Positions 310-40,159 of a stretch of DNA of 64,000 nt are shown one piece after another (the stretch's first letter is position 1; every line of letters begins with the position of its first letter). Source of the stretch: Levilactobacillus fuyuanensis (GTDB taxonomy: Bacteria > Bacillota > Bacilli > Lactobacillales > Lactobacillaceae). Location: assembly GCF_003946395.1 (NCBI RefSeq), contig NZ_RHNZ01000017.1, positions 1-64,000 of the forward strand, read 5' to 3'. The position numbers and the translations under genes were made by a program. The notes below the pieces were generated by a model, which saw only the letters and a program-made list of their open reading frames with translations, did not search any database and was not told where the DNA came from.

Positions 310-500
310 AGCCGGAGGAGGCCAGGATGGAGCCGGCTGTGACGATGGTGTTAGACCGGGCGCTTGGTTCTCCCCGGCCTTACAGCATGGGACGAGCTTT
401 AAGCCGTGCGAATTTCACGGCTTAAAGTCGAGGTAAGAGACCGCTTCTCAGGCTCTTGCCGGTCCCCACAGCAGGCGCAATCCTGGCAGCCGCAGGCGGC
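310..500 (+). repeat. family A structured intergenic repeat, copy A1
   Basis: First of six related elements (others at 23466, 31455, 31959, 36239 and 39999). Visible parts in order: AGCCGGAGGAGGCCAG; a hairpin around 350-391; GGGACGAG; a perfect 12-bp hairpin formed by CTTTAAGCCGTG and its complement (397-427); AGTCGAGG; a hairpin GGTAAGAGAC/GGCTCTTGCC; then GTCCCCACAGCAGGCG and the closing arm TCCTGG, complementary to CCAGGA at the 5' side. It lies beyond the 3' end of thiN, in the opposite orientation. No ORF is evident inside it. Confidence 0.8.
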
Positions 501-524
501 AAAACCAGTCTGCCTTAAACCAAA

Positions 525-1202
525 TTATTCGTGCCGCGCCTCATAGGTGTCGCAGCTTTGGATGACACACAATAGGCCCGTGTCGAATTGGAACTCGCCC
601 GATCCGCCCACAAACTCATTGCTAGCGAAAGAAATGGGGTACGGAATTGGCTCGTTGTGGAGTTGGTATTTTTCATTAGTCAGGCTTAAATGGTCAATGG
701 GCGTCAGCGGAATGAAGGCCAGATAGTTCTTATCGGCTTCTTTCTCCACCGTGTAATGCCCCGGCAAATAAAACGAAATCGTATTCTGTTTGTCAATCAA
801 CCGAATTCGGCTGGCATACCGCTTATACTCCGGCTGGAGCACGATAAAGAGGTTTGCTAGGAAATGGTCTAGCCGGCCACCCGTTGCGCCGTAGATGTCG
901 ATTTTATCGGCACCGTAGTCGTTTAACGCAACCGAAACGGCGAGCTGGGTGTCCGTATAGTCCTTTTCCGGCTGTGACTGACGAATATCCTTCACGTTGC
1001 GCCGAACCCGTTGGAGTTCTGGTGCTTGTAAGGAATCAAAGTCGCCAATCGCGGCCACCGGCTGAATATTCTGATCGATTAACCGTAACGTCCCCCGATC
1101 AACGCCAATCCAGGAGCCGTCAATTTTCCGTGCACGTAGGTCGTCCGGCCATTCAGCCTTGGGCCCACCCACGAGGAGATTGAACGTTCCGCCCCGTGGC
1201 AC
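525..1202 (-). CDS. thiN: thiamine pyrophosphokinase
   Basis: Transfers pyrophosphate from ATP to thiamine to make thiamine diphosphate in the cytoplasm. At 225 residues it has the family's usual size. The N-terminal catalytic part carries the expected Asp-rich segments: GVDRGTLRLI, AIGDFDSL and the PEKDYTDTQLA / GATGGRLDH stretch near residues 78-112. The C-terminal part is the beta-rich thiamine-binding domain. The GTG start shares its G with the rpe stop codon (TAGTG), so translation is probably coupled to rpe. It is the last gene of the rsgA-rpe-thiN run, and no T-rich terminator is visible before element A1. Confidence 0.93.
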   Translation of the reverse strand: MPRGGTFNLLVGGPKAEWPDDLRARKIDGSWIGVDRGTLRLIDQNIQPVAAIGDFDSLQAPELQRVRRNVKDIRQSQPEKDYTDTQLAVSVALNDYGADKIDIYGATGGRLDHFLANLFIVLQPEYKRYASRIRLIDKQNTISFYLPGHYTVEKEADKNYLAFIPLTPIDHLSLTNEKYQLHNEPIPYPISFASNEFVGGSGEFQFDTGLLCVIQSCDTYEARHE

Positions 1203-1855
1203 TATTTCGTCGCTGCTTTCAAGGCATTGATGCGTGCAACCGGGTCATCGGCGTTGAAAACATAAGACCCAGCTACGGCAACCGTTGCCCCAGCATTGGC
1301 ACAGTCAACGACCGTCTTGTCATTGACCCCACCGTCAACTTCGATATCAAAGTCGTAACCCTTGGCCTTCTTGATGGCATCGAGTTGGGCGATCTTTTCA
1401 ACCGTGCTGTGTAAGAACTTCTGACCACCAAAGCCGGGGTTGACCGTCATCACGAGGACTTGGCCAACCATGTCTAAGACGGGTTCGATAGCGGAAACGG
1501 GGGTCCCAGGGTTGATGACAACTTCTGGGGTAACACCGGCGTTTTGAATCATTTGTAAGGCCCGGTGAATGTGTGGCGTTGCTTCGACGTGAACCCCGAT
1601 GATATCGGCGCCGGCCTTGGCAAAGTCATCAACGTAACGTTCTGGGTTTTGAACCATCATGTGCACGTCTAAGACCATCTTCGTGATTGGACGAATAGCC
1701 TTGACCCAACCGGGACCGTAAGACAATGCTGGGACGAAGTTACCGTCCATGATGTCGATGTGTAAGACTTCGGCACCGGCCTTGTCGACCATTTCGATAT
1801 CTGGTTGTAAATTGACGTAATCTGCACTTAAGATTGATGGCGCTACTTTAATCAT
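1202..1855 (-). CDS. rpe: ribulose-phosphate 3-epimerase
   Basis: Interconverts ribulose 5-phosphate and xylulose 5-phosphate in the pentose phosphate/phosphoketolase route. The 217-residue TIM barrel has the family signatures: APSILSAD at the N-terminus, HIDIMDGNFVP with metal-binding His and Asp, DVHMMVQNPE, VMTVNPGFGGQKF with the phosphate loop, and EVDGGV near residue 173. It lies 12 bp after rsgA and overlaps thiN by 1 bp, a gene order common in lactobacilli. Full length, with nothing unusual. Confidence 0.97.
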   Translation of the reverse strand: MIKVAPSILSADYVNLQPDIEMVDKAGAEVLHIDIMDGNFVPALSYGPGWVKAIRPITKMVLDVHMMVQNPERYVDDFAKAGADIIGVHVEATPHIHRALQMIQNAGVTPEVVINPGTPVSAIEPVLDMVGQVLVMTVNPGFGGQKFLHSTVEKIAQLDAIKKAKGYDFDIEVDGGVNDKTVVDCANAGATVAVAGSYVFNADDPVARINALKAATK

Positions 1856-1867
1856 AAATTCTATTCC

Positions 1868-2764
1868 TCATTTCTTTTTATTGTAAACAGGTTTTTGATT
1901 CTTTAACAACGTGAGTAATTGCAGATATGTGTCATAACGACTCTGCATGAACTTACCGGCTTCAATGCCGTCTTTGACCGCACAACCGGGCTCGTTCAGA
2001 TGGACACACCCGCGGAAACGACACTCGCGAGAGGCCAACGCGAACTCGGGGAAGAATTGTCCCAACTCGCGGTAACCAATGGTCAACGTGTCGTAAGATG
2101 AAAATCCAGGCGTATCCGCCACCAGACCACCCGCAACGGGCATCAGGCTGACCTTCCGGGTCGTATGTTTCCCCCGATTCAAGGCCGTGGAGATTTCACC
2201 AGTCGCTAACGTCAGGTCCGGTGAAATGTGGTTCAGCAACGTTGACTTGCCGGCACCGGTTTGGCCCATAATGACCGTGACCTTGTCGGCTAGTAAGCCC
2301 CGCAACTCGTCCAAGCCACTCTCCGCAAACGGTTCACGGGTCAGGCAGACATCGTAACCGATCTGCCGGTATCCCGCCGCCAACGTCTCGAATTCCTGAT
2401 AACGTTCATCGGGAATCAGGTCGGTCTTGGTGAAGTAGATGACTGGCGTGATGTTGCTGATCTCTAGGGCAATCAACTGCCGGTCCAGTAGGTTCGTGGA
2501 AAATTCGGGCGACGCTACCGCCGTCACGACGACACCCTGATCGATGTTAGCCACTGGTGGCCGGGTCAATGCGTTATCCCGGGGAAGAATCTCTAAAATA
2601 TATCCTTCCTTGGGTGATGAGCTTTCAAACTGTACGCGATCCCCAACAAGCGGCGTAATTCGCCGTTTCCGGAAATTTCCGCGTGCACGGGTTCGATACA
2701 TCTCGCCGTCACTGAAGACGTCGTAAAAGCCGCTCAGTGATTGACGAATTTGTCCCTCTGACAT
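1868..2764 (-). CDS. rsgA: ribosome small subunit-dependent GTPase A
   Basis: A circularly permuted GTPase that helps late maturation of the 30S subunit. Order of parts: an OB-fold (residues 1-65), then G motifs in permuted order (FTKTDL before the P-loop GQTGAGKST near residue 167 and DTPGF near 219), then a C-terminal zinc knuckle with Cys-Cys-His-Cys in CRFRGCVHLNEPGC. At 298 residues it is full length. The start follows a strong ribosome site (AGGAGG). It heads the rsgA-rpe-thiN run; element B1 lies in its upstream region, so it probably has its own promoter between there and the prkC terminator. Confidence 0.97.
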   Translation of the reverse strand: MSEGQIRQSLSGFYDVFSDGEMYRTRARGNFRKRRITPLVGDRVQFESSSPKEGYILEILPRDNALTRPPVANIDQGVVVTAVASPEFSTNLLDRQLIALEISNITPVIYFTKTDLIPDERYQEFETLAAGYRQIGYDVCLTREPFAESGLDELRGLLADKVTVIMGQTGAGKSTLLNHISPDLTLATGEISTALNRGKHTTRKVSLMPVAGGLVADTPGFSSYDTLTIGYRELGQFFPEFALASRECRFRGCVHLNEPGCAVKDGIEAGKFMQSRYDTYLQLLTLLKNQKPVYNKKK

Positions 2765-2822
2765 GCAGCACCTCCTTATTCTTTTTTCCAGTGTTTCCTT
2801 GCATTTAGCACTTTAAACAATT

Positions 2823-3016
2823 CGCCTTACCGGGCGGTGAAAATAGGCCGGGACGCGGTGGGCGGACGCCCGGAGCCACAGTGCGGTCTCCGGGCTTGCC
2901 TTTGAACCTCTGAGAACCGAGTTTCAAAGCCACCAATTATCTAAGCGGTAAACCGCTTAGATAATTCCCACGGCTGAGCCTATTTTCACCGCCCTCACGG
3001 CTGACACTGGTTTACC
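2823..3016 (+). repeat. family B structured repeat, copy B1
   Basis: A ~194-bp intergenic fold-back region between the prkC terminator and rsgA. It has a perfect 16-bp outer stem (2832-2847 pairs with 2979-2994). Inside are GCCCGGAG/CTCCGGGC, a TTTGAA/TTCAAA arm pair, and a perfect 14-bp hairpin AATTATCTAAGCGG with its complement (2936-2967). Both ends, CGCCTTACCGG on the left and CCTCACGGCTGA...GGTTTACC on the right, recur in the inverted copy B2 at 8687-8856, which defines the element. No ORF is evident. Confidence 0.75.
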
Positions 3017-3135
3017 GTGCAGAATGCAAAGTAAACCGAACAGCCACCTTAAATCTGCGAAACCACTTACACACATCCAGCGGACAGCTGGTTGCAAGGT
3101 TGCCTTTGCCCGCTTTCCTTGAAAATTTGATAACA

Positions 3136-3175
3136 AAAAACTCAGTCCTTTATTATTATAAAAGAACTGAGCTAT
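3136..3175 (-). terminator. terminator after prkC
   Basis: Read on the minus strand, an imperfect hairpin (CTCAGTTCTTTTA pairing with TAAAGGACTGAG) is followed by a run of six T. It sits 18 bp after the prkC stop codon and ends the fmt-rsmB-prpC-prkC run. Confidence 0.85.
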
Positions 3176-3192
3176 AAATGCAGGTTTTTTCC

Positions 3193-5235
3193 TTAATTTT
3201 TCGAGACGTGATTGTCTGAAGCGACCACGTGACCATCTCTGACGACCTTGTAGGCCCCAGATTTGCCCGATGCTACTGCGAATGGCAACGTGACGGTTGT
3301 GTCCGCCGTGATCGTCATTTGTTTGTAAATCGAGCTTAACGAGTGGTCCTGATCCTTCAAGTAGATCTGAACCAGGTTACTGTCACTGCTACTGGACGAA
3401 GCGCTACTAGAAGACTCGTCGTCGCCTTCGCTCTCGTCATCGGTCGAGCCACTGTCGAATGGAATCTTCACGTTCACGCTGAACTCATCGACACTAGAAC
3501 TACTCTCACTCTGTGAACCGCGCGACACGGCCAGAGTGATCTCGTCACCTTCCTGAACAACGGCACCCTCACCCGGCGACTGCCGAATGATGCAGCCTTT
3601 GTCCACATCGCTCGAATAAGCGTACTGGAAGGCAAGGTTTAAGTTGTGATTCGTGGCGTAGCTCTGCGCTTGCCGTTTGGTCTTGTTAGTCAAGTCAGCC
3701 AACGTGACCGTTTCTGACCCCGTAGAGACTGTGAAAGTGATGTCCGTTTTGCTTGGTACCACGCTCTTACCGGCTAAGACACTCTGCTGCATGATCTTAC
3801 CGGCAGGAACGCTGGTTGAGTGGACCGATTCCCGGTGAACTGCAAAGCCCAATGCCTCCAGCTTGGCAGCCGTGCTGGCATACGAATCACCCTGATAGTC
3901 ATCAACCTTGTAGCGCTTGGGACCGGTACTGATCCACAGATCAACCACCGTATTTTGCTTTAATTGCGTCCCCGAGCGTGGTTCCGTTCGCGCAACTCGA
4001 TGAATCTTCACGGTAGCACTCGACGTCTTGTGCACGGTGCCTACCTTGAGTTTGGCAGAGACCAGTGCACTACGCGCAGCAGTCTCCTTGTCGCCGACCA
4101 CGTTTGGTACATTAGTCATCTGAGGTCGGAAAAGCGCCATGCCGATGAAGATTCCCAAAATAATCAGGAAGATAATTCCACCCGCAATCAGGAATTTACG
4201 CCGACGAGGATGCCGATACTTCTTGCGTTTCTTCTTCCCTGTCGACTGATCATTGGCCGCTGTTGCATCTTTGGTGGCCGCCTCTGCCGTCTCCTCACCA
4301 GTTGGCTTAGCGATAGCGTGAGGCACTGCCGCGGCACTCAGCGCACTGGCTGGTAGGACCTTGGTCTCGCCGTCGTCATTTTCCGCCGGCCTGAACCGTA
4401 GCTCGCCAGCTCGTTTAGGTGACAACGACGTGGCCAGATCATCCGCCATACTCGCCACATCCGTGTAACGGTCGGCTGGCCGTTTCGATGTGGCCTTCAG
4501 CACCACGTTTTCCAACGCTTGTGGAATCCGTGGGTCGATGTCTCTGACCGATGGAATCTCCGACTGGAAGTGCTTCAGGGCAATTGATACGGCAGTTTCA
4601 CCCTCGAAGGGCACCGTTCCCGTCAGTAATTCGTAGAGAATGATCCCCAGCGAATAGATGTCGGACTGCTTGGTCGCCATCCCCCCGCGTGCCTGTTCAG
4701 GCGACAGGTAGTGAACCGAGCCCAGCACCGTATTCGTCTGTGTGAGGCTGTGTTCGGACAAAGCCACGGCGATCCCGAAGTCGGTAATCTTAGCGACCCG
4801 ATTTTCATCGATCAGGATATTTTGCGGCTTGAGATCCCGATGAATAATGTTGTGCTCATGCGCCGTCTTCACGGCATTGAGAATCTGCTCCATGATCTGA
4901 ATGACTTCCTGATAGGCAATCGGGAAGTGTTTCTTGATGTAGGCTTTGAGGTCGGTCCCTTCCACGTACTCCATGACCAGGTACTGCATGCCGTTTTCTT
5001 CCCCGACATCGTAGACCTGGACGATATTATCATTGACTAACTCCGTGGCGGCAAGGGCTTCACGCTGGAACCGCCGAACAGTGCCGGGGTCATCGCGTAA
5101 ATCCAAACGTAAAAGTTTGACGGAAACGTCACGGTCCAAGATCAAGTCATGTGCCAAGTAAACGTTGGCCATCCCGCCTTCACCAAGAGAGCGAATGATG
5201 CGGTAACGGCCGTTTAACGTGTAACCCGTGCGCAT
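3193..5235 (-). CDS. prkC: PASTA-domain serine/threonine protein kinase
   Basis: A membrane kinase that senses muropeptide or lipid II through extracellular PASTA repeats and phosphorylates cell-wall and division targets. Residues 1-270 are the kinase domain: glycine loop GEGGMA (18-23), Lys40, catalytic HRDLKPQN (132-139) and DFG (152-154). A basic linker is followed by one membrane segment near residues 347-369, three PASTA-like repeats, a Ser/Asp-rich low-complexity stretch, and a short beta-rich tail. Its ATG overlaps the prpC stop (TGATG) and follows GGGGAGGTG, so kinase and phosphatase are co-translated. Full length. Confidence 0.97.
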   Translation of the reverse strand: MRTGYTLNGRYRIIRSLGEGGMANVYLAHDLILDRDVSVKLLRLDLRDDPGTVRRFQREALAATELVNDNIVQVYDVGEENGMQYLVMEYVEGTDLKAYIKKHFPIAYQEVIQIMEQILNAVKTAHEHNIIHRDLKPQNILIDENRVAKITDFGIAVALSEHSLTQTNTVLGSVHYLSPEQARGGMATKQSDIYSLGIILYELLTGTVPFEGETAVSIALKHFQSEIPSVRDIDPRIPQALENVVLKATSKRPADRYTDVASMADDLATSLSPKRAGELRFRPAENDDGETKVLPASALSAAAVPHAIAKPTGEETAEAATKDATAANDQSTGKKKRKKYRHPRRRKFLIAGGIIFLIILGIFIGMALFRPQMTNVPNVVGDKETAARSALVSAKLKVGTVHKTSSATVKIHRVARTEPRSGTQLKQNTVVDLWISTGPKRYKVDDYQGDSYASTAAKLEALGFAVHRESVHSTSVPAGKIMQQSVLAGKSVVPSKTDITFTVSTGSETVTLADLTNKTKRQAQSYATNHNLNLAFQYAYSSDVDKGCIIRQSPGEGAVVQEGDEITLAVSRGSQSESSSSVDEFSVNVKIPFDSGSTDDESEGDDESSSSASSSSSDSNLVQIYLKDQDHSLSSIYKQMTITADTTVTLPFAVASGKSGAYKVVRDGHVVASDNHVSKN

Positions 5236-5978
5236 CAGCTCACCTCCCCATCGTGGTTAGCGATGATCAAGACGGTGATGTTATCCAAACCACCGGCGGC
5301 GTTGGCCATCTCAATCAGCCGGTCACATTTCTCCGCGGTGGTCCGCTTACTCAGTAGGACCGCTTGAATCTCTTTATCGGAGACCATGTTGGTCAGGCCG
5401 TCCGTACACAGTAACAGCTGATCGCCGGTCACGAGCGGGTAAGTCTTGAGATCAAAACGGGCATCGGTCGAGATTCCCAGTGAACGAATGATGACGTTCT
5501 TTTGGGGATGATGCTGGGCGGCTTGCTTCGTGATCTCGCCGCGTTTGACCAGCTCGTTGACCAGGGAATGGTCCTCGGTCAGCTGGCGAAATTGGCGGTC
5601 ACGCAACAGGTAAGCGCGGGAGTCCCCAATACTGGCAATGACGACTTCTTCCGTAAAGTAGAGCGCGGCAACGAGGGTCGTGCCCATGCCATTCAGGTCG
5701 GCAAACTGATTGGATTTATCAATGATCGACTGGTTCTCCGCGGTAATTTCCCCGGTGATCCAGGTCCGTGCCGCAGCCGGTGTGGTCAGGTCAGTCTGCT
5801 CGAACTCGTGACCCAGGTGGGAAACGGCCATGGCACTCGCCACGTCGCCTCCCTGATGACCACCAATGCCATCAGCGATAATGGCGAGATGTTGTCCCGC
5901 CAGGTTCGTGTAAACATCCACGTAATCTTCATTATCATTGCGTTGCTTGCCGATCGACGTTCGGTATGCCACTTTCAT
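5235..5978 (-). CDS. prpC: PP2C-type protein serine/threonine phosphatase
   Basis: A cytosolic metal-dependent phosphatase that opposes PrkC by removing phosphate from the kinase and its substrates. The 247-residue protein has PP2C motifs throughout: RNDNEDY near residue 13, ADGIGGHQGGD near 35, GTTLVAAL, SIGDSRAY, TEDHSLV and LLCTDGLTN with a metal-binding Asp, and GGLDNITV at the end. It is paired with prkC by a 1-bp overlap and starts 12 bp after rsmB, as in the Firmicute fmt-rsmB-prpC-prkC-rsgA order. Confidence 0.96.
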   Translation of the reverse strand: MKVAYRTSIGKQRNDNEDYVDVYTNLAGQHLAIIADGIGGHQGGDVASAMAVSHLGHEFEQTDLTTPAAARTWITGEITAENQSIIDKSNQFADLNGMGTTLVAALYFTEEVVIASIGDSRAYLLRDRQFRQLTEDHSLVNELVKRGEITKQAAQHHPQKNVIIRSLGISTDARFDLKTYPLVTGDQLLLCTDGLTNMVSDKEIQAVLLSKRTTAEKCDRLIEMANAAGGLDNITVLIIANHDGEVS

Positions 5979-5990
5979 TGCCCGTCACCC

Positions 5991-8686: not shown

Positions 8687-8856
8687 GGTAAACCTCAGCC
8701 GTGAGGGTGGCCTGGTAGTGGCTCAGTGGTATCGTTTGTCTAAGTGGCGCGATTTTCGCCACTTAGACAAACGACAAGCTTTAAGACCCACGTTTCTTGT
8801 GGGGCTTAAAGTTGTGCCCACCACGTTCCAGTATCTACGAGCCCACCGGTAAGGCG
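8687..8856 (-). repeat. family B structured repeat, copy B2
   Basis: Inverted relative to B1 and sharing its two ends. An outer stem (GGTGGCCTGGTAG against CTACGAGCCCACC) pairs at 11 of 13 positions. Inside are a perfect 18-bp hairpin TCGTTTGTCTAAGTGGCG with its complement (8732-8774) and a 13-bp hairpin starting CTTTAAGACCCAC. The corresponding inner hairpin of B1 has TCTAAGCGG/CCGCTTAGA where B2 has TCTAAGTGG/CCACTTAGA, a compensatory change. It begins 34 bp beyond the priA stop. Confidence 0.72.
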
Positions 8857-8889
8857 CCGGTCATCGTCTACCAGAAAACAGACAACCAG

Positions 8890-11307: not shown

Positions 11308-11317
11308 GGTTGTCACC

Positions 11318-23084: not shown

Positions 23085-23465
23085 GCGACTTGTCCTCCCC
23101 TAAAATTCAAAGTTACTTTCCATTTTAGCATACCTTATCTGAAAACGGGGGTGGTATCCGTTCCCACAAAAAAATCTATATATCTGGCATGTTTGACGGG
23201 CATTTTCCCTAATAGCCAATCTCGATCATTGAAAAATCGGTTTTACTTTCTAAGCTTACTGCGCTTACTTCTCATGCCTACCTGATTGCCCACCTGCCAA
23301 TTATTGCCTTCATTTCAATGGCATCAGTCCCGCTCGTTGCCGTCGATTCACCACACCCTCAAGGTTCCAGTCGAAGCCACAGCAATAACTAAGATACCGA
23401 CAGCCCCACTGGCAACGCCATTTTGGGTTTGCAGACCCACCACGCTGACACCAGCGACAAGTCGT
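23085..23465. other. intergenic region upstream of folD
   Basis: About 380 bp between folD and element A2. It is expected to hold the folD promoter. The open frames here lack ribosome sites and family resemblance. No clear regulatory element was identified. Confidence 0.35.
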
Positions 23466-23613
23466 AGCCGTAGGAGGCCAGGGGTGTAGCCGGCCGGGAC
23501 GGCGGTGTTACGCCGGGCGCTTGGGCCTCCCCGGGGTTACAGCGCGGGACGAGCTTAAAGTCGAGGTGCGAGACCACTCCACAGGCTCGCACCAGTCCCC
23601 ACAGCAGGCGGCC
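23466..23613 (+). repeat. family A structured repeat, copy A2 (short form)
   Basis: Shows AGCCGTAGGAGGCCAG, the first hairpin (GCGGTGTTACGCCGGG with CCCCGGGGTTACAGCGC), GGGACGAGCTT, AGTCGAGG, the hairpin GGTGCGAGAC/GGCTCGCACC and AGTCCCCACAGCAGGCGG. The second hairpin is reduced to CTTAAAG and the 3' closing arm is missing, so this copy is probably truncated or degraded. It lies beyond the nusB terminator. Confidence 0.75.
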
Positions 23614-23647
23614 ACTTTCCTCTACAGTCATAACTCGCAAGTCTGCA

Positions 23648-27689: not shown

Positions 27690-27800
27690 CCTTATAATTT
27701 TAGACTTAGACTCGCCGAAAACAAGTGCTCCGCAAGCGGAAAACTTAATGACTCGTCCCGAGCGGTTGCAGCTGTGGAAGTCCACAAATACAACATGAAA
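27690..27800 (-). promoter_or_regulatory. rplU leader region (L21-leader-like)
   Basis: The 5' untranslated region contains a short hairpin TGTGGACTTCCACA (about 27774-27787), a GC-rich stretch CGCTCGGGACGAG and a further fold before AAGGAGG. A structured L21 leader is known upstream of this operon in Firmicutes. The match here rests on position and local hairpins, not a model search. Confidence 0.5.
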
Positions 27801-28897: not shown

Positions 28898-28909
28898 ATT
28901 ATTGCTGTT

Positions 28910-29452: not shown

Positions 29453-29464
29453 CGCGTGAGCCTC

Positions 29465-31277: not shown

Positions 31278-31454
31278 GGATTATCCCTCATTCTCATGTT
31301 CCCTAGCCTGTGCTGAAAACATTTGGTTATACGTTCATGTTACCAAAAAATGCCGCATAATAAAGCAGTTTCGCCCAATTTCGCCGGAAAACAATGAAAT
31401 TTTTACAATTTTTGACGATGAAGGGCCACATTGCTGATGGGATTATCGGAACTG
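31278..31454. other. promoter region of the 28910-31277 operon
   Basis: No gene. AT-rich, with candidate -10 hexamers (TTTATTATG near 31355 and GTATAAC near 31330, minus strand) but no convincing -35. The short tandem GGCGAAA-like repeats near 31375-31390 are noted. Confidence 0.35.
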
Positions 31455-31622
31455 GTCGTCTGCGGCTGTCAGGGATTCTGCCTGCTGTGGGGACCGCTTG
31501 CAGCCACAAAACAGGCTTCCAGCTCGGTTTGAACCCTCACCAAGTTCAGGTGAGTTTCCAAACATATCCCACGGTGTTAACACCGTTGTCACGGCCGGCG
31601 CCATCCCTGCCCTCCTCCGGCT
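31455..31622 (-). repeat. family A structured repeat, copy A3 (inverted)
   Basis: The only minus-strand copy. In its own orientation: AGCCGGAGGAGGGCAGGGAT, GCCGGCCGTGACAACGGTG, a shortened first hairpin (ACGGTGTTAACACCGT), a diverged middle, GCGGTCCCCACAGCAGGCAG, closing arm ATCCCTG and GCCGCAGACGAC. The closing arm ATCCCTG is complementary to CAGGGAT at the 5' side, a different base set from copies A4 and A5. It lies upstream of the three-gene operon and 337 bp from A4. Confidence 0.75.
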
Positions 31623-31832
31623 ACGACTCAGCATTACCAACGTCCTCTCAACTTACCTCAAATTTGGACAAAGTCACTTGTTCCATGCCAATCACTATAG
31701 TCGCGGCTAGCTTTAATTTAAATCACCAAATGCTGACTGACATATTCCATCACTTACTAATCAATTGAATGGAAATCCAATAACTCAGCTCATCAGTACT
31801 CCCGTCAAATCATTGTCATATCAACTATTCGT

Positions 31833-31876
31833 TCAAAAAAAGCCATTGTCCGAGGCAAAAGTCCAGGACAACAGCT
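31833..31876 (-). terminator. terminator of the glnR-glnA transcript
   Basis: On the minus strand TTGTCC pairs with GGACAA in a ~33-nt hairpin followed by seven T. It lies ~300 bp beyond the glnA stop, so the glnA mRNA would carry the complement of element A4 in its 3' untranslated region. Confidence 0.65.
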
Positions 31877-31958
31877 TTATTAAACGATTTAAAATGGATT
31901 ATTTATATTGCGTACGCGGAATTCAATCACGTATATTGAGCGGATGAACAACTATCTT

Positions 31959-32146
31959 AGCCGAAGGCGGCCAAAGATGTAGCCAGCCGTGACGGTGGTC
32001 TTAGCTGGCGCATTATCAGCCAGCTTAGACCACGGGACGCGCTTGGAGACGTCTGAACTTTGACGGCTTCAAGTCGAGGCATAAGACCGCTCTATGGCTT
32101 ATGCCGATCCCCACAGCAGGCAGAGTCTTTGGCAGCTACAGGCGAC
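31959..32146 (+). repeat. family A structured repeat, copy A4
   Basis: The best-folded copy. First hairpin: GTGGTCTTAGCTGGC with GCCAGCTTAGACCAC (14 of 15 pairs, one T-T mismatch kept in other copies). Second hairpin CTTGGAGACGTC/GACGGCTTCAAG with G-U pairs. Third hairpin GGCATAAGAC/GGCTTATGCC. Closing arms GCCAAAGA/TCTTTGGC. The invariant CCCCACAGCAGGC is present. It begins 28 bp beyond the glnA stop in opposite orientation. Confidence 0.82.
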
Positions 32147-32173
32147 AACTTCCATCCTCCAATCAACTTCCGT

Positions 32174-33514
32174 TTAGTACAATTCCAGGTACTGATCGCG
32201 TTCCCATTGGGAAACCTGCGTCCGGTAAGAGTTGTATTCCAAGTTCTTAGCTTCCATGAAGCTCTGGAACAAGTGATGACCCATAGCGTTACGCATCACT
32301 TCATCGGCTGCCAAGTCCTTCAACGCATTGTGCAACGTATCTGGCAAGTTGGTGATGTGGTTTTCCTGACGTTCTTCAGCATCCATCCGGTAAATGTTCC
32401 GGTCGATGGCTTCACGTGGAGCCAATTGGTTCCGCAAACCATCTAGGCCGGCTTCCAGAACGGCAGCGATGGCCAGGTATGGGTTAGCCGCTGGGTCCAC
32501 ACTCCGGAGTTCCAAACGGGTGGACAAGCCACGGGAGTTTGGTACTCGGATCAGTGGTGACCGGTTAGAACCGGACCAAGCAACGTAGACAGGGGCTTCG
32601 TAGCCGGGAACCAACCGCTTGTAACTGTTAACGATTGGGTTGCAGATGGCGGTAAAGCTCCGGGCATGCTTCAACAGTCCACCCAAGAAGTGGAAGGCAT
32701 CTTCTGACAGTTGCATGTTACCCTTTTCATCGAAGAAGGCATTACCCTTGTCGTGGAAGAGTGACATGTTCAAATGCATCCCGGAACCGTTGATGCCAGC
32801 CAATGGCTTTGGCATGAACGTGGCGTACAGCCCGTATTTCCGAGCGATGGTCTTTACGACCAGCTTGAACGTTTGAATGTTGTCGGCGGCGGTTAGGGCG
32901 TCGGCATACTTGAAGTCAATTTCATGTTGGCCGGGAGCCACTTCATGGTGGGCCGCTTCAACATCGAAGCCCATATCTTCCAAGGTCAAGACGATTTCAC
33001 GGCGACAATTTTCACCCAAGTCCATTGGGGCCATATCGAAGTAGCTCCCCTTATCGTTGAGTTCCGTCGTTGGCTTGCCGTTTTCATCCATCTTGAACAG
33101 GAAGAATTCGGGTTCTGGTCCGATGTTAAAGTCGGTGAAGCCGGCCTTACGCATGTCACTTAAGACCCGGATCAGGTTGTTCCGTGGGTCGCCTTCGAAA
33201 GGCTTGCCATCCGTCGTGTAGACTTCACAAATAACCCGCGCAATCTTGCCACGTTCCGTGCTCCAAGGGAAGATCATCCAAGTTGAAAGGTCAGGGTACA
33301 GGTACATATCACTTTCTTCGATCCGCACAAAACCATCGATCGATGAACCATCAAACATCAGCTTGTTATCGAGCAATTTGTCCATCTGACTGATGGGTAC
33401 CTCAACGTTTTTGATTGTCCCGAATAAGTCGGTAAACATTAACCGTAAAAATTTAACGTTTTCGTCCTTTGCCATCTGGCGAATATCATCTTTGGAATAG
33501 TCCCGTTTTGCCAT
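32174..33514 (-). CDS. glnA: glutamine synthetase, type I
   Basis: Makes glutamine from glutamate, ammonia and ATP in the cytoplasm. The 446-residue protein has the family landmarks: [34 protein letters not shown] (Glu-flap and metal ligands), [38 protein letters not shown] and [28 protein letters not shown]. Its length is that of the GlnR-regulated alpha-type Firmicute enzyme, which lacks the adenylylation insertion. It follows glnR by 44 bp and is under the GlnR box at 34006-34022. The GlnR-GlnA interaction is known in Bacillus relatives. Confidence 0.98.
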
Positions 33515-33558
33515 TAAAATCGCTCCCTGTCAGTTTTTGTTTCTCCAAAATGTCGTGG

Positions 33559-33942: not shown

Positions 33943-33970
33943 GCGATTGGCCCCCTTTAACTATGAGGCT

Positions 33971-33998
33971 ATCATACCACCCTGTGACCGGGAGTCAA
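33971..33998 (-). promoter_or_regulatory. glnRA promoter
   Basis: On the minus strand TTGACT (33993-33998), a 16-bp spacer, then TATGAT (33971-33976). Confidence 0.8.
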
Positions 33999-34005
33999 GA
34001 GCTTA

Positions 34006-34022
34006 TGTTATGTTTTGTGACA
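34006..34022. promoter_or_regulatory. GlnR operator
   Basis: TGTTATGTTTTGTGACA matches the TnrA/GlnR consensus TGTNA-N7-TNACA at every specified position and lies just upstream of the glnR -35, supporting autoregulation of the glnR-glnA operon. Confidence 0.9.
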
Positions 34023-34067
34023 TGAAACTTGATTTTTAAAAATTCTTTAGTTAATTTCTAGACCAAA

Positions 34068-34985: not shown

Positions 34986-35737
34986 GAATCGCATTCTCCT
35001 TGTATTTGGTAGCGCAGGCGTACGGCCTGTGCCGGATAGTCAGTGATGATACCCGCAAAATGGTGCTTGAAACAATAGGTCATGTCGGCTGATGAGTTAA
35101 CTGTCCACGGCCGTAGTTGCACGTGGGGCAACCAGAAGCGATGGGCCTTGACCCAACGAATATCCGGATGGAGGTCCGCCACCTGATGACGCCGCTGCAT
35201 CTGCTTGGCCTGACGACTAGCCGTCTGGAAGAGCTTGGCGTATTCGGCCTGTGGGTACAAGGCCTTCAGCGTCAGTAAGGATTGTGCCCGAAAACTTGAG
35301 AACACCAGTCGAAACGGGACATCCCGCTGTTTAAAATATGTTGCCAGCTGTTGTTCAATGCCTGGATACGGAAATTTATTGGTCTTCAATTCCAGATTGA
35401 ATATCCCGGTAAACTGGTTCTGATCGAGCAACCGAATCACCTCGTCCAACGTCGGAATCCGGGTGCCCGCATAGTCAGCGGCAAAATGGCTACCAGCATC
35501 CAGCTGTTTGAGCTGGACCAGCGTCAGATCCCTGATATTTCCCATCCCATCAGTTGTCCGATCGACCTGCTCGTCGTGCATGATCACCATCTGGCCGTCC
35601 TGAGACAGCTGTACATCGGTCTCAATGCCATCTGCACCAGCGTCTAATGCCGCCTGAAACGCAATCAGGGTATTTTCCGGTCGCGTCCCCTTACTTCCAC
35701 GATGGGCCAGAATTTGGGTCCCTTGCCGTTTGAACAT
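34970..35737 (-). CDS. ugpQ: glycerophosphodiester phosphodiesterase
   Basis: Hydrolyses glycerophosphodiesters to glycerol 3-phosphate and an alcohol. The 255-residue TIM-barrel protein has AHRGSKGTRPENTLIAF, GIETDVQLSQDGQMVIMHD with catalytic Glu/Asp and His, and the C-terminal TVNSSADMTYCFKHHFAGIITDYP. There is no signal peptide, so the enzyme is cytoplasmic. The start is the ATG 8 bp after GGGAG. Its end overlaps miaA. Confidence 0.93.
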   Translation of the reverse strand: MFKRQGTQILAHRGSKGTRPENTLIAFQAALDAGADGIETDVQLSQDGQMVIMHDEQVDRTTDGMGNIRDLTLVQLKQLDAGSHFAADYAGTRIPTLDEVIRLLDQNQFTGIFNLELKTNKFPYPGIEQQLATYFKQRDVPFRLVFSSFRAQSLLTLKALYPQAEYAKLFQTASRQAKQMQRRHQVADLHPDIRWVKAHRFWLPHVQLRPWTVNSSADMTYCFKHHFAGIITDYPAQAVRLRYQIQGECDSWKKF

Positions 35738-35894
35738 TACCGCCACTCCCTTCATCGTTTTTCCTAAAGGCTAGCGTATCACAAAACCCCTGACTTTTTC
35801 GACTGGATTCAGCTAATTGCTGGCTATTTCACAGTAAAACCAGCATAATGGAAGCGGATAACTAATTTATTAAAAAATGATAGGAGTCGATACT

Positions 35895-36071
35895 ATGAAG
35901 CATTTCACTAAGGGCTTTCTCTTTGGCGTAGTCGCTACGGCCAGTGCCGTTGCTGGCGCTGTCTTCTCTTTCAAAAAAAAGGTCGTTCAACCAATCGAAG
36001 ACCAAGAATCACGTTTTGAAGAAAACCGCAAACGGGCCAACCGGAAGAGCCACTCAGCTCACAACGGTTAG
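35895..36071 (+). CDS. DUF3042 family small membrane protein
   Basis: A 58-residue protein of a short family typical of lactobacilli: one N-terminal hydrophobic segment (GFLFGVVATASAVAGAVFSF) then KKKVVQPIEDQESRFEENRKR and a basic tail. Function unknown; likely anchored with the charged tail in the cytoplasm. The ATG follows ATAGGAG; an upstream in-frame ATG (35877) has no ribosome site. Single plus-strand gene with its own terminator. Confidence 0.88.
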   Translation: MKHFTKGFLFGVVATASAVAGAVFSFKKKVVQPIEDQESRFEENRKRANRKSHSAHNG

Positions 36072-36077
36072 TTAGCA

Positions 36078-36113
36078 AGGAACCTGGGATTGTTTATTCC
36101 GGGTTCCTTTTTT
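36078..36113 (+). terminator. terminator after the DUF3042 gene
   Basis: GGAACCTGGGA pairs with TCCGGGTTCC (one G-U pair and one bulge) and is followed by six T. Confidence 0.88.
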
Positions 36114-36238
36114 AGTTGCTCTCTGAATTAAGTACGAACCCACGTGACGGCAATGTGACTCAGCAAGCTTACTGCTAAATATTCTGCCAATATCTTAATC
36201 TACGGTCAGGACAATTGATTATAGCTGAGAATTAGCCT

Positions 36239-36423
36239 AGCCGGAGGAGGCCAGTAACGTAGCCGGCCGTGTCGATGACCTTGGCTGACGTTCTCTGTCA
36301 GGTTAGGTCATGGGGCGAGCTTGGAGATGCACGATTTTTGCGGCTTCAAGTCGAGGTTCAAGACCGCCCTTTGGCTTGGACCAGCCCCCAAAGCAGGCGG
36401 AGTTACTGGCATCCGCAGGCGAC
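36239..36423 (+). repeat. family A structured repeat, copy A5
   Basis: First hairpin ATGACCTTGGCTGAC/GTCAGGTTAGGTCAT, second hairpin CTTGGAGATGCA/TGCGGCTTCAAG, third hairpin GGTTCAAGAC/GGCTTGGACC, perfect closing arms GCCAGTAAC/GTTACTGGC. The core reads CCCCCAAAGCAGGCGG instead of CCCCACAGCAGG. It lies between two facing terminators (36078-36113 and 36441-36476), so any transcript of it would need its own promoter. Confidence 0.82.
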
Positions 36424-36440
36424 AACTCTCAGACTGATAG

Positions 36441-36476
36441 AAAAAGGACCCGCGGCAAAAATGCCGTGGGTCCTTG
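36441..36476 (-). terminator. terminator after the rhodanese-like gene
   Basis: AAGGACCCGCGGCA and TGCCGTGGGTCCTT form a near-perfect stem with an AAAA loop; T-rich on the minus-strand exit side. Confidence 0.85.
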
Positions 36477-36481
36477 CTTGT

Positions 36482-36895
36482 TTAGTACTTCGTCTTCTTC
36501 GTCTTACCTTCCCAACGCACGTAACCATTCTTCAGGATAAAGATCTGGTCGAAACCATCTTTACCTAACATGATTGCTGCCCGCGTGCTGATGGTCTTCC
36601 CTTGGTCATATAAGTAGACCGGGAGATCCTTGCGGAGTTGGCTGTGATAAGCCTTGAACGTTGAGTAAGGGAAATTGCGCGCCCCCAAAATGTGTCCCGC
36701 GTCAAAGTCCTTTTTTTCGCGTAAGTCAACGACTTGAGCCGTCCGAATACCAGCTTCAAATGTTTCGGCGTCGATCAACTTTGCGACCCGGTTACGCCGG
36801 ATGATCGTTGTCAACTGCCAGCCGCCCCACACGGCAATAAGAATGATGAGGACAATCGTGTAAACTGTCCATCCTGAGATTGCACCAATAACCAA
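36482..36895 (-). CDS. membrane-anchored rhodanese-like protein without the active-site cysteine
   Basis: A 137-residue protein with one N-terminal membrane helix (residues ~8-28, VYTIVLIILIAVWGGW) and a rhodanese domain (VVDLREKKDFDAGHILGARNFP near 55-76). In catalytic rhodaneses a Cys opens the active loop; here that position is Asp97 in YLYDQGKTISTRAA, so sulfur transfer is unlikely. Such YqhL/YibN-like proteins are common in Firmicutes and may bind rather than transfer. It follows glcK by 33 bp. Confidence 0.9.
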   Translation of the reverse strand: MVIGAISGWTVYTIVLIILIAVWGGWQLTTIIRRNRVAKLIDAETFEAGIRTAQVVDLREKKDFDAGHILGARNFPYSTFKAYHSQLRKDLPVYLYDQGKTISTRAAIMLGKDGFDQIFILKNGYVRWEGKTKKTKY

Positions 36896-36928
36896 AACGA
36901 AATCTTCCTTCCTAATCCTCTAAATCTT

Positions 36929-37900
36929 TTAGTTTGTCTTTTGGAACCGTAATGCTAATGAAGCGGCCCCGATGACCCCAGCGTCATTTCCGAGTTGTGC
37001 TAGCCGCAGCTTGGTTGAATCCCGAACTGCTGGGAAGGCATTTTCTTGGAAGTAACGGGTCGTCGGTTGTAACAAGGTGTTGCCGGCGTTTGAGACCCCA
37101 CCACCGATGATGATGTTGGCTGGGTTCAAGATGTTGGCAACGTTAGCCAAGGCTAAACCTAAGTAGAACGTCACCCGGTCAACGACTTGGTTGGCCAAGA
37201 TGTCGCCGTTGTCAGCCAAATAGAAGACCATCTTAGACGTGACGCTTTCCTGATTGTCTTCCATTTCCTTCAAACGTGACGTGCCCATGAAGTCCTTGGC
37301 CATGTCAGAAGCCACGTGAACAACCCCAGTTGCTGAAGCGTATTGTTCCAAGCAACCGCGCTTGCCACAGGTACACAGGTAACCGTTTGGTTGCACCGTG
37401 ACGTGGCCGAGTTCACCGGCCCCACCGTTGATCCCGTGCAACAGGTGACCGCCAGCGATGACCCCACCGCCGACACCGGTTCCTAAGGTAACGAAGACGA
37501 CATCTGCGTCCTTTTCACCGGCACCCTTCCAGTATTCACCCAGGGATGCCACGTTGGCATCGTTGTCCAAGATGAATTGCAGGCCGATACCTGCTTGAAT
37601 CTGGTCACGAACCTGTTGACGCTTCTTCCAGTTTAAGTTGAAGGCCCCGATGACCGTCCCATTTTCAATGTCGACTGAACCGGGCGTCCCCATCCCGATA
37701 CCGATAAAGTCGTTTTTGCTAAATACTGAGTTGGTAATGTGTTGATTGATCGAATCGATAATATTGGGAACGATGTGGCTACCTTCGTCTGAGATATCCG
37801 TGGGAATGCTCCACTTTGCCAGAATTTCTCCAGCGGTGGAGAGGAATGCCATCTTTGTCGTAGTCCCGCCTAAATCGATTCCAATTAAATTCCGTGCCAT
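36929..37900 (-). CDS. glcK: glucokinase (ROK family)
   Basis: Phosphorylates intracellular glucose with ATP. The 323-residue protein has the N-terminal phosphate loop IGIDLGGTTTKMAF, the sugar-binding GTGVGGGVI and GGAGELGHVTV region near residues 140-170, and the ROK zinc motif CTCGKRGCLEQYAS. Full length. It follows yqgQ by 3 bp in the ygfA-gluP-yqgQ-glcK run, whose order is conserved in Bacillales and lactobacilli. Confidence 0.96.
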   Translation of the reverse strand: MARNLIGIDLGGTTTKMAFLSTAGEILAKWSIPTDISDEGSHIVPNIIDSINQHITNSVFSKNDFIGIGMGTPGSVDIENGTVIGAFNLNWKKRQQVRDQIQAGIGLQFILDNDANVASLGEYWKGAGEKDADVVFVTLGTGVGGGVIAGGHLLHGINGGAGELGHVTVQPNGYLCTCGKRGCLEQYASATGVVHVASDMAKDFMGTSRLKEMEDNQESVTSKMVFYLADNGDILANQVVDRVTFYLGLALANVANILNPANIIIGGGVSNAGNTLLQPTTRYFQENAFPAVRDSTKLRLAQLGNDAGVIGAASLALRFQKTN

Positions 37901-37903
37901 ACT

Positions 37904-38134
37904 CTAAATCCCTCCAATGGATTGGTGCTGATCTCTTGCATGTTGTACTTCAATGCGGTGTTCATGTGTGAGAACCACCTTAGCCGCCACAAAGGTCTTG
38001 TCATCGACCACCCGTGCTTTACGGAGGTGATCCAATTCCAATGCCATGACTTCGATGTCCCAAAGACGTTTGCCCACGTAGACATAAATACCAAATTTTT
38101 TAAGTAGCTGCTGAACATCATATAACGTTTTCAT
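37904..38134 (-). CDS. yqgQ: YqgQ family (DUF910) small protein
   Basis: A 76-residue helical protein of unknown function whose Bacillus homologue binds single-stranded nucleic acid in vitro. The family body is MKTLYDVQQLLKKFGIYVYV, GKRLWDIEVMALELDHL. ATG 38134 is preferred: GGAGG lies 10 bp upstream and the longer frame has no site. It sits between gluP and glcK, its characteristic position. Confidence 0.9.
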   Translation of the reverse strand: MKTLYDVQQLLKKFGIYVYVGKRLWDIEVMALELDHLRKARVVDDKTFVAAKVVLTHEHRIEVQHARDQHQSIGGI

Positions 38135-38176
38135 TGTGCCACAACCTCCGTGAAATTGCACGGGACATTTTCGCTT

Positions 38177-38860
38177 CTACTGCGCCATGCCGTGCATATA
38201 CAGCCAGACCAATCCACCAATCAAGACGATAGTTGCTACAACGCGTTTAACTACGCTAACCTTACCAATTCTAGGAACACCCAATGAATACGCTACCAAA
38301 AAGCCGGCAGCCAGTCCACCAATGTGCCCTGCTAAATCAATCCCTGGTGCGAATAAATCAAAGATAATGTTCATCACGACAAAGGCCAAGAAGGTCTGGG
38401 CGAGCTGACGAATCACTGGATTCTGCCAGAAGGATTCCCCGAGCATCATGAAGGCCCCAAACAGGCCGAAGATGGCCGTGCTGGCCCCCGCTGATAAACT
38501 ATTCGAGAAACAGAAGCTGGCGACGTTACCGCCGACCCCAGACACCAAGAACAGTACCAGGAACCGGGCGTGGCCGAATGCTGCTTCAATCTGAATCCCC
38601 ACAAAGTACAGGGTGATCATGTTCATCAAGATATGGGTAAACCCGATATGCAGGAACATTGGCGTAAAGAGCCGCCACCATTCGCCCTGTTGAATCAGTG
38701 GGTTCAGCTTCGCACCAAAGGTAATCAAGACGTTTGCACTGGTACTTCCACCGTCTAACGTCATGGCACCGTATACCAGAACCATGATCACGATGAGGCC
38801 GACCGTCATGAACGGATATTGATTGAGCCGATTGAGCCGATACTTCATTTGCTGCGCCAC
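38177..38860 (-). CDS. gluP: rhomboid family intramembrane serine protease
   Basis: Cleaves substrates within the membrane. The 227-residue protein has six to seven hydrophobic segments. The catalytic serine is Ser127 in SAGASTAIFGLFGAF (GxSxxxxG) and the catalytic histidine is His179 in AGHIGGLAAG. The L1-loop region WWRLFTPMFLHIGFTHILMN carries the conserved WR and HxxxN. The Bacillus homologue has been linked to cell division and glucose export. GTG start after GAGGAAG. Confidence 0.94.
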   Translation of the reverse strand: MAQQMKYRLNRLNQYPFMTVGLIVIMVLVYGAMTLDGGSTSANVLITFGAKLNPLIQQGEWWRLFTPMFLHIGFTHILMNMITLYFVGIQIEAAFGHARFLVLFLVSGVGGNVASFCFSNSLSAGASTAIFGLFGAFMMLGESFWQNPVIRQLAQTFLAFVVMNIIFDLFAPGIDLAGHIGGLAAGFLVAYSLGVPRIGKVSVVKRVVATIVLIGGLVWLYMHGMAQ

Positions 38861-38875
38861 GATGCCGCTTCCTCT

Positions 38876-39430
38876 CTATTCTAAATTAGCGGCTAGTACC
38901 GCGTCCAATAATATGTCAAAGGAATCAACATGCCAAGTCGGTGCGGCAATCTGCTGGGCGGGTAAGGCTAAGGCAACCTTAGTCCCCGTTGTCTTAGGCA
39001 GGTAGCGGTCATAGTAACCACCACCGAAGCCAACGCGCTCACCAGTGGCCGCAAAGACCAATCCAGGCACAATAATGAGGTCGAAGTCGGCCGGATCGAT
39101 CACCCGATTATCTTGCGGCTCCATCAGGCCGAATTTCGTCCGGATCAGCGTGGTTGTCTCATCCATCACGTGAAAGGCCATCTGGCGTTGTGGTAGTGTC
39201 TGCGGGACTGCTACCGTCTTGCCATCGGCCTGTGCCCGTTCGATAATCGGCCGGGTAGCAAGCTCAAAGCCGCCACTGATAGTTGTCGCAATCGTTGTCG
39301 CCTGCTGATAGGCTGGCAACGCCCACAGCTGTCGATAGAGGTCATCAGACGCCCGTCGACGGTCGACAACAGCCATCGCAGACAGGGCCTTAATCGTTTG
39401 TTGCCGAATCTCTGCTTTACTTGGCATCAT
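38876..39430 (-). CDS. 5-formyltetrahydrofolate cyclo-ligase
   Basis: Converts 5-formyltetrahydrofolate to 5,10-methenyltetrahydrofolate with ATP (YgfA/FthC family). The 184-residue protein has IRQQTIKALSAM at the N-terminus, GFELATRPII, and the C-terminal catalytic stretch IVPGLVFAATGERVGFGGGYYDRYL near residues 121-145. Two adjacent ATG codons follow GGGGG; the second may be used. First gene of the run leading to glcK. Confidence 0.94.
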   Translation of the reverse strand: MMPSKAEIRQQTIKALSAMAVVDRRRASDDLYRQLWALPAYQQATTIATTISGGFELATRPIIERAQADGKTVAVPQTLPQRQMAFHVMDETTTLIRTKFGLMEPQDNRVIDPADFDLIIVPGLVFAATGERVGFGGGYYDRYLPKTTGTKVALALPAQQIAAPTWHVDSFDILLDAVLAANLE

Positions 39431-39457
39431 TTACCCCCTTGATTCATTCGATGTATA

Positions 39458-39485
39458 AAAAAAGGGTCGGACTCTCGCCCGTACC
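39458..39485 (-). terminator. terminator after rpmG
   Basis: AAGGGT and ACCCTT close an imperfect hairpin followed by seven T on the minus strand, directly at the rpmG stop. Confidence 0.8.
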
Positions 39486-39486
39486 C

Positions 39487-39636
39487 TTACTTAGTTTCGC
39501 GATGCAAAGTTACTTTCCGGTCACGTGGGCAGTACTTCTTAAATTCAACACGATCCGGGTTATTACGCCGGTTCTTGCTGGATAAGTAGTTGCGTTCGTG
39601 GCATTCAGTACATTCTAAAGTGATGTGTACACGCAT
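39487..39636 (-). CDS. rpmG: 50S ribosomal protein L33
   Basis: A 49-residue ribosomal protein: [40 protein letters not shown]. It keeps the first CxxC but has CPRD instead of the second CxxC, so it is not the full zinc-binding form. Start ATG after GGGAGG; the longer frame upstream is untranslated leader. A ~190-nt leader with a hairpin at its 5' end precedes it. Confidence 0.96.
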
Positions 39637-39806
39637 TATGGGTAACCTCCCAACTTGTTCATAATTACAGGCATGAGCCTTAACTCGTAATATATTACCA
39701 TTATTTCGGGACAATTACCAGCCATAATTCTAAATATGTTAAGGAAAAATACTTAACAGCTAAATTACCTAGAGTTGCAATCGATTCGGTGACCGATGAT
39801 TGTCCT

Positions 39807-39851
39807 ACTGTGTCGGGCTGGTAAACCAGTGGTCCAATTGCTCCCGACACA
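39807..39851 (-). promoter_or_regulatory. hairpin at the 5' end of the rpmG leader
   Basis: A perfect 10-bp stem (CTGTGTCGGG and CCCGACACAG, 39807-39816 and 39842-39851) with an inner CTGG/CCAG hairpin. On the minus strand TATAAT lies just upstream (about 39856-39861), so the hairpin would form at the very start of the rpmG mRNA, ~170 nt before the start codon. Role unknown. Confidence 0.6.
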
Positions 39852-39998
39852 GATTTATTATACACCCTTACTTTCAATGTCCTGGAAACTATTACAAATT
39901 TGCCAATAATAATTGAAAAACCACAGGTCAACGAGCTAAGGGATTAGTCACCTAGCTCACACGATTTCGCAACATTTTACTGTTTGAGAGCCATCCTA

Positions 39999-40159
39999 AA
40001 CTAGAAGGAACAGAACGTAGCTAGCCGTGACGGCGGCGTTAGACCGGACATTTGACTCTCCCAGCCTTACTACGCCGGGTTCCAAGTCGAGGTGAGAGAC
40101 CGCTGCTCAGGCTCGAACCGGTCCCCACAGCAGGCGGAATTCTGGCAGCCACAGGCGAC
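39999..40159 (+). repeat. family A structured repeat, copy A6
   Basis: A diverged copy: CTAGAAGGAACAGAACGTAGC at the 5' side, GCCGTGACGGCGGCGTTAGACCGG, a shortened middle ending CCAAGTCGAGG, GTGAGAGACCGC, GGCTCGAACCGGTCCCC, ACAGCAGGCGGAATTCTGG and GCCACAGGCGAC. Closing arms are CAGAA/TTCTG. It lies beyond the terminator of the penicillin-binding protein gene, in opposite orientation. Confidence 0.75.

Follow-up and report, generated by a model that had tools for sequence, protein, structure and literature searches.

What are the folded elements that lie scattered between the genes of Levilactobacillus fuyuanensis, and how might so many copies of them have come to be there? The question is raised by positions 1 to 64,000 of contig NZ_RHNZ01000017.1 (assembly GCF_003946395.1), a stretch of 64,000 nucleotides that was analysed whole and is here called the window. 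A sequence-only reading of this window had picked out six dispersed copies of a structured element and had taken the compensating base changes among them as a sign of selection on structure, whether RNA or single-stranded DNA, in a family that it did not recognise. This reading is supported. The six copies are real, but they are a small part of a very large family whose members behave as the ends of a paired mobile unit, and the earlier account was not wrong but incomplete, having missed how many copies there are, their (-)(+) pairing, the copy-specific inverted repeats in the flanks and the presence of relatives in other genera. The answer proposed here, with a probability of roughly 55%, is that each copy is a structured end domain of a mobile DNA unit that is small and non-autonomous.

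Fundamental to this answer is the fold itself. The element, some 150-200 nucleotides in length, consists of a basal stem, P1, which in many copies is extended by copy-specific flanking arms, a further stem, P2 (GCYGTG/CACAGC), and then three hairpins, H1, H2 and H3. In an alignment of 60 copies the unpaired motifs around the junction are conserved, and a sister type that lacks H3 was seen by eye in genomes G003 (stretch L236), G246 and G256. The alignment was drawn from 62 full-length copies of the own genome, leaving out L042:3812-3994 and window positions 31453-31627. The ordered motifs and compensating arms described earlier are present both here and in a six-way alignment of the window copies, and the T-T mismatch said to recur in the first hairpin falls at columns 50/79 of the 60-copy alignment. 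RNAalifold finds 55 pairs in the 60 copies, with a double-sided compensated change in 43 of them. Standard pairs make up 96.9% of the cells compared with 84.3% in 500 column-wise shuffles, double-sided cells number 424 against 114.7, the covariation score is 0.419 against 0.186, and none of the five measures was reached in any of the 500 shuffles. When the pairing partner is slid by 1-3 columns only 31-46 double-sided cells are left. Column shuffling leaves relatedness in and sliding removes it, while the structure was itself derived from these same sequences. The covariation, which is above both controls and upholds the claim of selection on structure, can be so strong within one genome because each genome offers dozens of independently varying copies. 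The fold is therefore close to solved.

Which strand is it that folds? On the element strand there are 184 G-T cells and 32 A-C cells, and the figures become 146 and 29 when the count is confined to those 38 pairs that have three or more strict Watson-Crick double changes. Since G-T cells outnumber A-C cells by at least 5:1, it is the element strand and not its complement that folds, as RNA or as single-stranded DNA, two forms that the wobble asymmetry does not separate. This strandedness adds to the structural claim of the sequence-only reading.

The arrangement of the copies follows a rule. Within 21 stretches of the own genome, 20 of which were chosen because they hold copies and all of which carry script-called, unannotated open reading frames (ORFs), 23 pairs of neighbours lie less than 700 bp apart. 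Twenty of these are (-)(+), two are (-)(-), one is (+)(+) and none is (+)(-), and the spacer between the neighbours ranges from 39 to 548 bp. Neighbours of the (-)(+) kind have their 5' ends facing and their 3' ends outward, as in the window pair 31453-31627(-)/31954-32148(+). Of the two ends it is also the 3' one that lies closer to an ORF, in 74 of 87 own-genome elements and in 33 of 41 singletons.

In genome G198 the paired arrangement takes the form of a whole unit. The copies of this relative are less diverged, and 19 of 28 align with stretch L203 as a single block of ~750 bp, in which element(-) and element(+) stand on either side of ~330 bp that have an inverted repeat at their centre. 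The length of the unit could be measured at 27 of 30 loci, where it is 543-753 bp; of the others, two lack the left end and one is cut. Four units contain open frames, at most 142 residues long from stop to stop, that agree neither in position nor in length. Two of 11 further G198 stretches, taken around E1 domains without a listed partner, lack the inner part of the right element but have its basal stem (L304 and L310). One candidate for a 9-bp target duplication was seen by eye in L209 of G256; a 9-bp duplication at the intergenic region IG4, discussed below, is not secure enough to be claimed. As a separate observation, CAATCTTCGATTG is found 19-20 bases to the left of the unit end in L257, L259, L263 and L265 of G198, while in L260 and L276 the left end is doubled and the motif lies 86-87 bases within it; it could represent a target motif or a remnant.

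If these units are mobile, do close relatives differ at the same sites? A 20-kb syntenic block was compared between the own genome and 20 other genomes of the genus in four usable intergenic regions, IG1, IG2, IG4 and IG5 (IG3 and IG6 were left out, their anchors having overlapped or failed in most genomes), with a region called element-free where nhmmer gave no match at E<=1e-3. By this measure IG1 is element-free in 8 of the 20 and IG2 in 10, whereas IG5 is element-free in three and holds only fragments in two more (L230 and L235). IG4 is element-free, and 67-103 bp long, in 19 of the 20, compared with ~690 bp and a (-)(+) pair in G007 and the own genome. Some element-free regions are not short, such as IG2 of L221 at 296 bp, a region of L229 at 169-202 bp and IG5 of L229 at 355 bp. 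The G000/G007 comparison reveals that a different element type can stand at the same site within the same flanks. Between G020 and G011, which are 94-95% identical, two elements have near-identical basal arms and inner domains that differ (L222:15148-15330 against L224:14578-14685), and in three more comparisons, L222/L224 twice and L228/L242 once, the inner domain is present on one side and absent on the other with the stem kept. As such same-site differences separate genomes that are ~93-95% identical, the movement or exchange behind them would be recent, with transposition as their probable source.

How might such a unit operate? It would be composed of two domains, inverted with respect to one another, with their 3' ends outward and joined by a spacer, each domain comprising the basal stem P1, stem P2 and three hairpins, or two hairpins in the sister type. 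The outward-3' strand is the strand that DDE and single-stranded DNA recombinases expose and transfer, and the folded strand of the proposed unit would be just this one, with its 3' end at the outer end of the unit. An enzyme acting in trans, a transposase or a single-stranded DNA recombinase, would move the units and would recognise their ends as single-stranded DNA and not as RNA. The units lie between genes, a short way from them at either end, and the inner domain within the common basal stem can be missing or of another type. Structured DNA ends are favoured because a promoter signal directed at the element is missing and because the element stands in no constant relation to the sense of the neighbouring genes. 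The mean promoter-like score towards the element is 7.44, compared with 7.39 on the opposite strand and 7.29 in shuffled sequence (n=79), and an independent RNA gene with its own promoter is rejected or weakened by the lack of such a signal in these 79 cases.

Within the window the covariance model R1, built from the 60 full-length own-genome copies, recovers all six of the earlier copies, on the strands first given to them and with 77-191 bits, together with two extra copies. The match is by construction for A1, A4 and A5, which are among the 60 sequences; A2, A3 and A6 are outside them. Copy A1 (305-502, +, 185 bits) is a full-length member of subfamily A with an orthologue in G007 at L067:11382-11577. 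In hand-mapped, approximate coordinates on the + strand, the 5' arm of its P1 (consensus helices 1-2) lies at 311-330 with its partner at ~476-497, and the GCYGTG 5' arm of P2 (helix 3) at 333-341 with its partner at ~467-475. These are followed by H1 with the recurrent T-T mismatch at 343-390 (helix 4, double-sided change in 13 of 15 pairs), H2 at 393-430 (helix 5, 12 of 15 pairs) and H3, the third hairpin of the earlier reading, at 431-460 (helix 6, all three pairs). Copy A2 (23461-23634, +, 102 bits) has its G007 orthologue at L239:8302-8505. Copies A3 (31453-31627, -, 153 bits), with its 3' end leftward, and A4 (31954-32148, +, 191 bits) are the left and right halves of an inverted pair, and their 5' ends face each other across a strandless spacer at 31628-31953, which is placed by the R1 coordinates and the pair rule; the 3' end of A4 points to the 3' end of ORF 32174-33514(-). 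Copy A5 (36234-36425, +, 179 bits) is followed, just beyond its 3' end, by a hairpin with a T-run that by eye belongs to the convergent ORF 36482-36895(-), while A6 (39994-40161, +, 77 bits) has a reduced H2 in the six-way alignment. The extra copies are one of subfamily B, or '162-type', at 2819-3007 (-, 65 bits, E 1.4e-16) and one of a short type at 8692-8860 (+, 48 bits, E 1.2e-11). The only match of the window to Rfam 15 at gathering score is an ordinary L21 leader (RF00559) at 27698-27777(-), with 62.6 bits, and nothing falls on the elements.

The family extends well beyond this window. At E<=0.001 R1 has matches in 34 of 35 Levilactobacillus genomes and at least 71 of them in each of 21 genomes, the own genome included, although some of these genus matches are possibly opposite-strand shadows of the kind seen in the window. 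Element-poor genomes also exist, with no R1 match in G021, two in G031 and nine in G015. BLAST with copy A1 returns at least 41 own-genome matches, the best 40 of 164 candidates having been scored, and an exact 27-base pattern occurs in at least 118 stretches of named genomes, those listed comprising 117 from Levilactobacillus and one from a metagenome-assembled genome of an uncultured Lactobacillus. Of 246 genomes sampled across the order, 9 have matches. Besides the own genome these are six that belong to four other genera within its family, and two from a second family, in which the matches are weak by score. When searched by BLAST with their own copies, the relatives turn out to be multi-copy. 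G256 has four short matches and 10 that cover 126 or more of the 156 bases; in G198 all 40 of the best-scored candidates match, at 76-100% identity and two of them partially, giving a total of at least 40; and in the second family, partial matches included, there are 9 in G145, 23 in G169 and at least 40 in G035. Two further alignments, which carry the names A4 and A5 and are not the window copies, hold opposite-strand shadows and were left out of the counts. A reduced model, R2, with 22 pairs from H1 and H2 only, gives single weak matches (E 1e-5 to 6e-5) in six of 348 genomes of the class besides the own genome. By BLAST, the match in L286 of G035 is to be assigned to a high-copy relative. 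The other five (L282-L285 and L287, in f4/g4 genomes, at 1501-1659) are a 159-bp folded element with a GTGGTG/CACCAC core and one match per genome; these R2 matches are unproven, and the f4 elements are possibly distant relatives or possibly a coincidence. Near the element in L199, L213 and L216 of G256 there is also a second hairpin repeat family, GGCCGCTTACACTCCGACTTCTAACCG-like, which by eye is apparently fused to the element in L216.

The absence of an Rfam match is not confined to the window. Eight own-genome loci, that of A1 among them, gave no match on a copy when searched at E<=1, with one MIR395 match lying 49 bases beyond the copy in L005, and at the same threshold the elements of L187, L189, L190, L193, L203, L236 and L286, six of them from other genera, were unmatched; the doubtful relative L282 has a sub-threshold SSRC8_2 match of 45 against 72 bits. 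That the family had not been recognised thus holds against Rfam 15, and a literature search, with most subscription journals outside its reach, turned up no description of it. Copy A1 has no match in 72,556 plasmid and 50,697 phage records, nor has L193 in the plasmid records, and an origin from plasmid or phage is on this evidence rejected or weakened. The G198 unit has three partial matches to Lactiplantibacillus plasmids, with 8-12% coverage.

The flanks of full A copies carry imperfect inverted repeats that are specific to each copy and have near-symmetric arms. These score at least 24 in 21 of 159 copies, orthologues included, against 1.4 expected from a partner-shuffled null, and they had also been above the null in a preceding test on 121 copies; direct repeats are mildly in excess, at 5 against 0.7 for the same score in the 159 copies. 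An intrinsic-terminator-like site is present in 16 of 50 antisense 3' flanks compared with ~3% of random windows. The ends of G198 units lie at terminator-like hairpins, counted only where a T-run follows, in 4 of 20 cases on the left and 7 of 20 on the right, the background being 7%. For the IG5 copy of G000 the arm on the 5' side is, by eye, similar to the inverted coding end of the neighbouring gene, and two element-free relatives, L226 and L234, have no such arm by eye. The same kind of likeness between a 5' flanking arm and the inverted coding end of a neighbouring ORF was seen by eye for some copies, at L029:15008-15300 and L029:9300-9420, and the arm is again missing from the element-free relatives inspected; it may be a pointer to the mode of insertion or to quasi-palindrome correction.

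What then speaks against a mobile unit, and what else could the elements be? A mobilising gene was not found in searches for Y1 and RVT_1 through genus genomes that are mostly draft assemblies; these two families do not track with the elements, and the genomes that lack a match to them include element-rich ones, though drafts can miss genes. The 11 extra G198 stretches hold no gene-carrying unit, as judged from match layout only, their ORFs not having been searched, and no clear target-site duplication is associated with 20 G198 units. In the own genome 41 of 87 elements have no detected partner within 900 bp, and most same-site differences could be gains as well as losses. The copies also appear to be conserved where they stand. 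Ten G000/G007 orthologue pairs have substitutions at 101 of 1062 paired positions, 119 of 791 unpaired positions and 235 of 1128 positions of the 5' spacer, after candidates more than 25% diverged were skipped (10 of 20, of these seven true same-site pairs and three cross-matches or shadow). Over six genome groups and up to 25% divergence, paired sites are slower than unpaired ones in 28 of 35 orthologue pairs, the exceptions being five of seven G020/G011 pairs, one G000/G007 pair (copy A1) and a single one of the four G033-group pairs. For 27 pairs no more than 12% diverged, Watson-Crick pairs have changed to G-T 43 times and to A-C 20 times (binomial p 0.0026, which ignores the reuse of some genomes in pairs that are not all independent). 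A dead insert should not conserve its pairing, though gene conversion from intact copies could do so, and the pattern reflects either selection on copies in place or their renewal by conversion, the latter being likely for the more diverged copies because their differences are clustered, hairpin by hairpin in G000/G007. Given this conservation, a serious rival is that the host uses the element as RNA, folded in the 5' or 3' untranslated regions of read-through transcripts, for instance in mRNA stability or regulation, with spread by duplication and maintenance by selection. It is a reading suited to the pairing kept in most orthologous copies, to the preference for G-T over A-C after insertion and to the conserved unpaired motifs at the junction. 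However, among 91 elements the ORF on the 3' side runs antisense in 51 and sense in 40, so that there is no fixed relation to the neighbouring mRNA, the promoter signal is missing, and the same intergenic region of close relatives can be element-free or carry another type. One genus genome of 35 gives no match at all and two give 2 and 9, and paired sites are not slower in most G020/G011 orthologues; a host-used RNA is, for all its seriousness, judged unlikely.

The remaining rivals concern the manner of movement. Insertion of each domain singly into pre-existing stem-loops, in an EFAR-like manner, draws on the excess of flanking inverted repeats, on an element-free G007 site (L217:4595-4603) that is hairpin-like by eye, and on the basal stem that persists as a hairpin at sites without the inner domain. 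The missing second arm in L226 and L234 suggests on the other hand that the arm may arise at or after insertion, and at the G198 ends terminator-like hairpins are met in only a minority of cases, so that single insertion is a doubtful account, although targeting of this sort would be compatible with a paired unit. The terminator-like antisense flanks, along with an RNA-like fold on one strand, would also be expected of an RNA retrotransposed in trans by a group II or other reverse transcriptase, as group IIC introns have a preference for terminator-like sites. Yet terminators are to be expected near gene ends anyway, two domains on opposite strands are unlike a single RNA copy, and RVT_1 was not found in 25 of the 35 genus genomes, with the own genome and G007 among those 25, by which a dependence on reverse transcriptase is rejected or weakened and left very improbable. 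A last possibility, that a Y1 (RAYT/TIRYT) transposase moves the elements in single-stranded form, as with REP/REPIN-type repeats, would agree with the inverted structured pairs, the intergenic location, the strand-specific fold and the want of a clear target duplication, and Y1 genes are present in 23 of the 35 genomes. Against this, Y1 was not found in the other 12, among them the element-rich G001, G011, G016, G030 and G032, where draft assemblies may miss copies. The flanks of three of four inspected Y1 loci are element-free (L248 and L249 for ~1.5 kb on each side, L041 for 1.5 and 5.0 kb), and the domains are ~150-200 nt and not 20-40. A Y1-dependent REPIN is rejected or weakened by the distribution of Y1 and by these loci, and its chances are slim. 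At the fourth locus, L244:15703-17677, a Y1 gene and an opposite ORF of 452 residues, tnpB-like by position and size only, occupy ~2 kb between two elements, a stretch that is not in the sister L245.

Among known systems, the element would by analogy behave as a miniature inverted-repeat transposable element (MITE) with EFAR- or REPIN-like traits: it is dispersed, multi-copy, non-coding and polymorphic between relatives, and inverted structured ends are present. EFAR, in the account of Venditti et al. from 2007, is said to be mostly ~170 bp, to be present or absent between strains, and to integrate into unrelated stem-loops with remnants of the target stem at its ends. By description EFAR and the present element are alike in being high-copy, strongly folded and intergenic, and the latter is set apart by its paired outward domains, its three-hairpin junction and its Lactobacillaceae hosts; the f2-family relatives (L193, G035) could be EFAR-like. 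REP/REPIN sequences are likewise structured intergenic units, often in inverted pairs and with suspected single-stranded DNA transposition, whereas the element has a multi-hairpin fold of ~150-200 nt and no visible dependence on Y1 genes. It thus falls outside REP/REPIN by size and by Y1 association, with 12 of 35 mostly draft genomes lacking a Y1 match. One source names EFAR of Enterococcus as a MITE family, gives REPs as 20-40 bp with GTAG or CGTC tags, and also includes RUP (PMC3733652). Another describes Efa-1 of E. faecalis as a 163-bp 'double hairpin', and its table lists BOX and RUP of Streptococcus pneumoniae with lengths of 84 and 63 and, for L. johnsonii, one Lactobacillus surveyed, a genic family only (PMC2267715). 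Compared by description, Efa-1 resembles the element in size, multi-hairpin fold and intergenic location, and BOX and RUP can be likened to it as structured intergenic MITE-like repeats.

What would the mobile unit mean for these bacteria? A broader and tentative proposal is that the Lactobacillales harbour a superfamily of transposable units whose ends are large multi-hairpin domains on the outward-3' strand, which would be moved by a structure-recognising enzyme, with inner domains swapped as cassettes while the basal stem around them stays the same, and with many copies staying competent or useful. If so, the conservation of copies in place would mean that they are kept competent, or useful, and are not decaying. 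These food bacteria carry the element dispersed and in very high numbers, Rfam has no match to it, and it poses a testable question: which enzyme recognises a 3' strand folded over ~190 nt and moves such structures in pairs?

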